A DNA stretch of 64,000 bases from Lentisphaeria bacterium (GTDB lineage Bacteria > Verrucomicrobiota > Lentisphaeria > Victivallales > UBA1829): assembly GCA_017629515.1 (NCBI GenBank), contig JAGBXB010000054.1:1-64000 (forward strand). Reading direction: 5' to 3'. Below, one piece after another: positions 56,914-57,429 of this stretch. The notes under the pieces are model-generated. The model was not told the origin of the DNA and did not search any database. It saw nothing but the letters and a program-made list of their open reading frames with translations. A program made the position numbers and the translations under genes. Numbering within the stretch: position 1 is the first letter of the stretch; each line of letters opens with the position of its first letter.

Positions 56914-56991
56914 CGGGATGTAGCGCAGCCTGGTTAGCGCGTTTGTCTGGGGGACAAAAGGTCGTGAGTTCGATTCTCATCATCCCGACCA
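56914..56991 (+). tRNA. tRNA-Pro (GGG anticodon)
   Basis: CGGGATG (56914-56920) pairs with CATCCCG (56981-56987). The anticodon loop between TTTGT and ACAAA reads CTGGGGG with GGG at positions 34-36. CCA is encoded at 56989-56991. It is followed at once by a T-rich stretch and the repeat element. Confidence 0.96.
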
Positions 56992-57024
56992 TTTTTTTTG
57001 CCCAAATTCCGGGCAAAAAAACAT

Positions 57025-57109
57025 GAAGCCCATCAGGGCTTCGCTTCATGGCACGCAGTGCCGCTTCATACGGCGCAGCCGTGTTTCATGCACCGCAGGT
57101 GCGCTTCAT
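57025..57109. repeat. Tandem mini-hairpin repeats with changing stems
   Basis: After a first hairpin, GAAGCCC-ATCA-GGGCTTC with GCTTCAT behind it (57025-57049), three units of exactly 20 bp follow: 57050-57069 (GGCAC-GCA-GTGCC), 57070-57089 (ACGGC-GCA-GCCGT), 57090-57109 (GCACC-GCA-GGTGC). Each has the same GCA loop and a GCTTCAT or GTTTCAT linker, but a different perfect stem. Sequence is not conserved in the stems, pairing is. It is not a CRISPR array, as no spacers are present. Confidence 0.85.
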
Positions 57110-57124
57110 AAAACCGCTTTTTCA

Positions 57125-57273
57125 GACTTGTCCCGCCGTAGCCTATGGCGAAGGAGGATAAAGCAGCACTATATTCATTCCACCATGAAGTATTGTTCCG
57201 CTATGCTCCACAACATGAAGCACTCACGATCGTCCGTATGACTTGTCCTCCGTAGCTCACAGAGCTACGAGGA
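57125..57273. repeat. Second part of the repeat element, two GACTTGTCC hairpins
   Basis: GACTTGTCC begins two similar hairpin segments, 57125-57158 and 57240-57273. The second has CGTAGCTC-ACA-GAGCTACG as a perfect stem enclosed by TCCT/AGGA; the first is shorter and imperfect. Between them lie AT-richer bases with ATGAAG and no gene. Together with the tandem hairpins this makes a composite non-coding repeat of about 250 bp. The rest of the gap up to the tRNA promoter at 57430 shows nothing else. Confidence 0.6.
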
Positions 57274-57429
57274 TGAAAAAATGAAAAACAAGAATTTTCC
57301 CATTTGTAATATATACCTCATACTGACATCATCTCCGTTTTGATCCCAAAATCTCCGATTCATCAGCAGCGATTCTGATCTATAACACAGAGGAATCTCA
57401 TAAAATTTAAAGTTTTTTCATTTCCGGGC

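Follow-up and report, generated by a model that had tools for sequence, protein, structure and literature searches.

The array of small hairpins at positions 57,025 to 57,109 of the window (the whole stretch of DNA analysed, 64,000 nucleotides long) is interpreted, with a probability of about 0.62, as the left half of a small insertion element, lodged between the 3′ end of a tRNA gene (sometimes of tmRNA or 5S rRNA) and the sequence that usually follows it, whose foldback ladder would act as a folded nucleic acid in recognition and movement. The architecture is demonstrated, as far as comparison of sequences can do so: two arrays of mini-hairpins carry mutually reverse-complementary heptamers, a promoter-like box and one gene, often of the S23 family, complete the intact copies, and occupied and empty sites coexist. 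That the array belongs to an insertion element is well supported, although movement has never been seen; the use of the foldback ladder as the structure for recognition and movement is only inferred.

The first-pass annotation had described three consecutive stem-GCA-stem units with a constant GCTTCAT-type linker, and a larger hairpin opening the array. This description was accurate: the 15 stem pairs are without exception Watson-Crick, a single linker of the four carries a C-to-T change (GTTTCAT, 57083-57089), and the core of the opening hairpin, GAAGCCC-ATCA-GGGCTTC, occupies 57025-57042; it covered, however, the left half only, and the adjoining tRNA was missed. The three hairpins in register are not attributable to chance (about 7e-9 if independent), since just 120 of the 63,987 13-mers of the window (0.19%) have five perfect pairs around 3 nt; the folding z-scores of the array (-2.6 to -3.8 versus shuffles, on both strands, as DNA and as RNA) are weak evidence taken alone. 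The window copy comprises the following features:

56914..56991, plus strand: host tRNA-Pro(GGG) gene, with the insert at its 3′ end (ARAGORN, Rfam)
56992..57021, plus strand: T8-GCCC..GGGC-A7 hairpin from the tRNA CCA to the array, judged from its sequence to be most likely the left end of the insert
57023..57042, plus strand: head hairpin ATGAAGCCC-ATCA-GGGCTTC (sequence)
57043..57109, plus strand: left half of the ladder, four GCTTCAT-type heptamers between and around three 5-bp hairpins (sequence, covariation and a sub-threshold Gut-1 match)
57110..57126, plus strand: tail AAAACCGCTTTTTCAGA, complementary to the head loop in relatives but not in the window copy
57127..57158, plus strand: nested hairpin insertion CTTGTCCCGCCGTAGCCTATGGCGAAGGAGGA, missing at the equivalent spot in uninterrupted relatives, e.g. 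L038
57159..57241, plus strand: right half of the ladder, three hairpin units and the degenerate reverse-complement heptamers TAAAGC, ATGAAGT, ATGAAGC and TATGA (comparison with intact relatives)
57242..57273, plus strand: second nested hairpin insertion CTTGTCCTCCGTAGCTCACAGAGCTACGAGGA (comparison with relatives)
57274..57340, plus strand: remnant of the right segment, TGAAAAAATGAAAAAC and the promoter-like box TTTGTAATA (comparison with L038, L075 and L084)

In the left half the heptamers are GCTTCAT (57043-57049, 57063-57069 and 57103-57109) and the variant given above, and they alternate with the hairpins GGCAC-GCA-GTGCC (57050-57062), ACGGC-GCA-GCCGT (57070-57082) and GCACC-GCA-GGTGC (57090-57102). 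A hairpin of the T8-GCCC..GGGC-A7 type stands ahead of most ladders, even of the one that in L317 immediately follows another ladder. No S23 gene follows the right-segment remnant, and the sole S23 match in the window genome lies on a different contig (C32); locus L020, overlapping the window copy, shows no complementary match of 5 nt or more between head loop and tail. Since the cargo gene is lacking, the head-tail pairing is lost, the right-half heptamers are degenerate and two nested hairpins have been inserted, the window copy is best regarded as a decayed relic. The nested hairpins belong to a family of about 30 nt, of the form CTTG[TG]C..CGGCGTA or CCGTAGC .. GAAG..GGA, which is found inserted at A^TGA points within ladders in both orientations (at 57127-57158 and 57242-57273 of the window, and also in L040, L061, L115 and L140) and looks like a very small mobile hairpin in its own right.

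Selection on stem pairing is demonstrated by covariation in a set of 79 distinct 13-nt strings taken between GCTTCAT-type linkers (with exact GCTTCAT flanks in the alignment), for which complementarity was not required and which come mostly from gut Lentisphaeria, Kiritimatiellae and Clostridia. Standard pairs fill 86.8% of the cells versus 52.2% after shuffling, and double-sided stem changes number 159 versus 68; the covariation score of the stems is 0.866, while shuffles give 0.241 (sd 0.023) and none of 500 reaches the observed value. When the partner is slid by one to three columns the score is 0.18 or less, a near-total loss. The proposal that selection acts on pairing only is supported as regards pairing, but "only" fails, the loops being constrained and the stems shuffled as modules. 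Indeed, the stems draw on a limited repertoire of about 29 distinct 5-mers and the units recur in differing order among elements, so that modules are exchanged besides drifting by compensation. On the GCTTCAT strand, C-GNA-G accounts for 37 of 73 triloops and C-GNNA-G for 16 of 30 tetraloops; retrieval of the unit loci by a pattern with a GCA loop inflates the share of GCA, whereas GAA, GTA, GGA and GNNA loops are free of this bias.

The earlier suspicion that related sequences occur in other gut bacteria proved correct, with pattern matches in Lentisphaeria, Kiritimatiellae and Clostridia, and the search of genomes for an excess of complementary stems, which had been suggested as a check, was run. 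In a scan of GTDB species genomes, five of five positions pair in 60 of the 66 matches from these three gut taxa, while the 23 matches from other taxa, which form a natural control, pair at 0-4 positions and none at 5. Within the order of the window genome, GCTTCAT-N5-GCA-N5-GCTTCAT is present in 35 of 137 genomes and the reversed control pattern in 0. Only one of 15 viral contigs with the pattern has 5/5 pairing, and the searches of plasmids and phages gave no match. In a contig of the viral-contig collection, classed as viral (L361, 13250-13911), a ladder was seen behind a detached tRNA-Ser-like end, with an apparent remnant of an S23 gene. The window genome itself holds at least five ladders: the one in the window, those on C44 (tRNA-Val), C78 and C113 (tRNA-Ser), and a CTTCAC-type ladder on C32; a loose pattern (TTCAT..GNA..TTCAT), whose matches are mostly due to chance, yet revealed the copies on C44, C78 and C113. 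One Kiritimatiellae genome carries multi-copy GCTTCAT hairpin arrays in which the second half is not visible (L105, L111, L118, L124, L161 and L169), often located shortly beyond the 3′ end of an opposite-strand protein gene.

In relatives, the left array is followed by a short tail and then by another series of hairpins whose linker, ATGAAGC, is reverse-complementary to GCTTCAT; by this comparison the window array is the left half of a palindromic foldback ladder. The right-half units, read on the opposite strand, have covarying outer stems (ATTGT/ACAAT, AGC/GCT, ATC/GAT, ATTT/AAAT), a G[GA]A/G[GA]A internal loop, a 2-bp inner stem and often a GNA loop. Head loop and tail also form covarying pairs (CTGAAAAGGC with GCCTTTTCAG, CGTCAGGC with GCCTGACG, CTGTCAAGGC with GCCTTGACAG, CGACAGGC with GCCTGTCG); they are complementary over at least 7 nt in 43 of 51 parsed elements, with a mean, over 31 distinct combinations, of 7.7 nt versus 5.9 with permuted tails (maximum 7.06 in 500 permutations). 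The heptamers differ in sequence among elements, but the halves stay complementary: besides GCTTCAT/ATGAAGC, the pairs are CTTCAC (left)/GTGAAG (right), upstream of S23 genes about 70% identical, AACATCGTT/AACGATGTT, upstream of one S23 gene about 50% identical, and ATGAAAT/ATTTCAT, in Clostridia after tRNA-Cys. This complementarity is taken to mean that the halves pair or are at least recognised in a mirrored way; since the heptamer pairing crosses the head-tail pairing, both cannot be nested simultaneously. A single nested RNA fold was tried and rejected, the minimum-energy folds having no consistent structure; for the whole element they did not clearly choose heptamer-heptamer pairing.

The location of the ladders was determined on 58 of them, fetched by the unit pattern alone, each with 150 nt of upstream sequence. 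In 43 the ladder starts 22-48 nt after the CCA of a tRNA gene on the same strand, 14 anticodons being represented; among the other 15, L103 follows tmRNA and most of the rest follow a CCATTTT-like tRNA end without a complete tRNA. The ladder of L051 stands after 5S rRNA. In L322 and L323 the detached tRNA end results from another insertion within the tRNA T-loop: downstream of tRNA-Pro, an element of about 230 nt, apparently in the T-loop, duplicates TCGAATCTC..CCCGACCATTTTTTTGCC and displaces the ladder, and remnants resembling it were seen in L076, L146, L231 and L361. In five loci (L038, L053, L072, L103 and L146) an inverted copy of the host tRNA's own end was observed directly beside the tRNA, such copies being GCCA/TGGC (Ser), CACCA/TGGTG (Val, Ala) and GACCA/TGGTC (Pro). 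The literature search uncovered no account of arrays like these downstream of tRNA genes in bacteria.

Synteny at the neighbouring ispE is not kept, so tRNA-Pro itself was used to find empty sites. Among the tRNA-Pro(GGG) loci with enough sequence, nine carry the ladder directly at the tRNA, in two it has been displaced downstream, and 15 are empty; two genomes of one genus (G094 and G098) differ in occupancy. The tRNA end CGACCATTT is duplicated around the inserts of L330, L331 and L333, and CCGCCATTTTTTTTGCAA is duplicated in L096. In G086 a second CGACCATTT occurs about 1 kb downstream, past both the ladder and the S23 gene; next to it comes GCAGTGTATACGGAATTT, the sequence that natively flanks the empty site of G132. 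The corresponding distance in G016 is about 1.2 kb, and the right flank beyond the repeat (L331) matches the empty site of G022 (L305) at 90% over 99 nt. The duplications measure 9-18 nt and are clean in four loci only, and, by MITE criteria, no single pair of terminal inverted repeats has been defined. Nearly all the genomes are metagenome assemblies, with many of the ladders situated at the end of a contig. Both L321 and L102 have the native tRNA terminator on the far side of the ladder, which places the insert between tRNA and terminator; since it precedes this terminator, the insert would likely be co-transcribed as a tRNA trailer.

The last parts of intact type-A elements are a conserved stretch, ATGAGAGTT, and the promoter-like TTTGCAATA..TATATT, often followed by the gene of a 119-residue protein matching PF05635 (S23 four-helix bundle; E 2e-24) and TIGR02436. 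A ladder is present upstream of all 14 near-full-length S23 homologues of more than 80% identity that were fetched with upstream DNA; homologues occur in 53 of the 137 genomes of the order, many of them truncated or with stops. In the Clostridia locus L139, tRNA-Gln and a ladder are accompanied by an S23 protein that shares 66% identity with the Lentisphaeria copy, which suggests transfer between phyla. Downstream of other elements are genes for membrane proteins, a lipoprotein and a TIR-like protein (named by eye, without domain search); S23 as the sole cargo was rejected, as the downstream ORFs vary, and some of these genes may be ordinary neighbours, not cargo. A ladder at every PF05635 gene was rejected too, the best 30 loci phylum-wide being without a GCTTCAT-type ladder and without a tRNA. 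Upstream of the best-scoring S23 genes of the phylum stand degenerate period-7 repeats, with a best 21-nt identity of 0.706 at lag 7 versus 0.45-0.51 at lags 4-6 and 8-13. For the PF05635 genes of L239-L268, degenerate 7-nt tandem repeats were seen ahead of the gene and inverted copies near or after it in about half; in L258, GTGAATC repeats occur together with GATTCAC repeats. The S23 protein, known to form pentamers in other systems, could plausibly bind the ladder.

Action of the ladder as single-stranded DNA rather than RNA is slightly favoured, because the hairpins of the heptamer strand prefer C-GNA-G and C-GNNA-G loops, which are unusually stable in DNA; several unit tetraloops (GTCA, GCCA, GACA) are not GNRA. 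On the other side, the authors of Gut-1 judged their motif to be RNA, and transcription of the tRNA would be expected to include the insert. The array may instead be a structured non-coding RNA related to Gut-1, produced as a tRNA trailer or from the opposite strand and acting as RNA, with dispersal being secondary. Alone among described RNA families, Gut-1 (Rfam RF01706) matches the window array: its model aligns over its full length (positions 1-77) with the minus strand at 57111-57039, with 34.7 bits (E 2.5e-5), and the best-scoring relative, a Clostridia ladder 42 nt after tRNA-Cys, reaches 49.1 bits; the minus-strand RNA fold has a z of -3.64, all the pairing evidence is equally compatible with RNA, and insertion before native terminators predicts co-transcription. 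Both matches, however, remain below the gathering score of 50, presence is patchy even inside one genus, the same ladder stands behind many different tRNAs, and the loops of the heptamer strand described above speak against RNA; this explanation is considered unlikely.

The same tRNA ends would also suit a non-autonomous passenger, similar to a miniature integrative element, inserted by the host XerCD or another tyrosine recombinase, with the ladder being passive. Integrases classically target the 3′ ends of tRNA genes, some inserts are bordered by short direct repeats of the tRNA end, and many ladder genomes have only 2-3 tyrosine recombinases (PF00589 totals); no integrase is found within the element, however, and the strong covariation of the ladder argues for an active role, which makes a passive passenger a rather improbable explanation.

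No transposase candidate travelling with the element was found. Y1 transposases and reverse transcriptases as mobilisers are unsupported by genome distribution: by inspection of 137 genomes, without a phylogenetic test, Y1 transposases are not enriched in ladder genomes (Y1_Tnp in 53 of 137, without an evident relation to ladders, and no Y1_Tnp match in the ladder-bearing G022, G060 and G081-G086), and reverse transcriptases, also by inspection, are not enriched, with none in the window genome and none seen beside ladders. G022 contains several near-identical ladders and has neither a Y1 transposase nor a reverse transcriptase match. The missing mobiliser is weak evidence, because the genomes are incomplete. 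The distribution of Y1_Tnp bears on a BIME/REP-like origin, in which a Y1 (RAYT-type) transposase would scatter the arrays by acting on single-stranded hairpins; this would agree with mosaic arrays of short hairpins having constant linkers, both orientations and shared modules in varied order, but the enzyme is not linked to the ladders, and these occur at tRNA ends, not in scattered intergenic regions, leaving such an origin very unlikely. Least credible is an ordinary, non-mobile decoration of a tRNA terminator or attenuator, which would account for the constant position behind tRNA genes and for the T/A-rich hairpin adjoining CCA, but not for a T7-GCC..GGC-A7 order that is not that of a canonical terminator, for the empty homologous sites, some with their own native terminator, or for the extra coding gene and the tRNA-end duplications.

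The insertion-element reading may be extended, tentatively and with doubt prevailing, to a class of tiny mobile cassettes of at least three gut bacterial groups, which would enter tRNA 3′ ends via a folded palindromic ladder of very stable mini-hairpins, with heptamers co-evolving between the halves, the S23 family as partner and the orphan Gut-1 "RNA" as one half of the ladder. Gut-1, a non-coding RNA without described organism or function, would gain a concrete context of tRNA ends, partner half, associated gene and host lineages. The widespread S23/four-helix-bundle proteins, whose role is unknown, would be linked to heptamer repeat arrays, with a phylum-wide 7-nt period matching the Coxiella IVS heptamers. 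Should the ladder prove to be a mobility site of folded DNA, it would represent a recombination system outside those known to us, and the filled and empty tRNA-Pro sites make direct testing possible.

Several known systems share traits with the ladder. Avd, the accessory protein of diversity-generating retroelements, belongs to a related four-helix-bundle family and works with structured RNA; no reverse transcriptase, however, was seen adjacent to the ladders, and the window genome has no match to one. Integron attC cassettes have a folded site conserved in structure and not in sequence, usually one gene, and variable cargo, all of which recall the ladder, and a GTTRRRY core; the inserts, in contrast, end like CGACCATTT, their junctions reading AAAAATGGT/CGACCATTT without a GTTRRRY-type core, they target tRNA ends, and no integron integrase was identified, on PF00589 totals alone. 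BIME/REP elements are likewise mosaic arrays of short hairpins with a conserved flanking motif, from which the ladder differs by the absence of a link to Y1 transposases, the location at tRNA ends and the hypervariable stems.

The S23p IVS of Coxiella and Leptospira is also a small selfish element at a stable-RNA gene and has a PF05635 gene, which is present in the intact relatives and absent from the window copy; in Coxiella, tandem heptamer repeats lie upstream of the S23 ORF (PMC4990558). Unlike the ladder, which stands 3′ of tRNA-Pro in the window and of tRNA, tmRNA or 5S elsewhere, and which has hairpins between the heptamers and a foldback, this IVS interrupts 23S rRNA and is excised by RNase III. 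Gut-1 is presented, in the parts of its description consulted here, as a stand-alone non-coding RNA of the human gut only, from environmental sequences only, without mention of an organism, a partner half or a tRNA (Weinberg et al. 2010, PMC2864571). The window array shares with it the three tandem hairpins, the variable stems, the constant linker and the gut origin, the linker being (G)UGAAAU or AUGAAAU in Gut-1 versus AUGAAGC on the minus strand of the window. Since 34.7 bits is below the gathering score although the anatomy agrees, the window array is classified, on the strength of this alignment, as Gut-1-like rather than as a member of the family.
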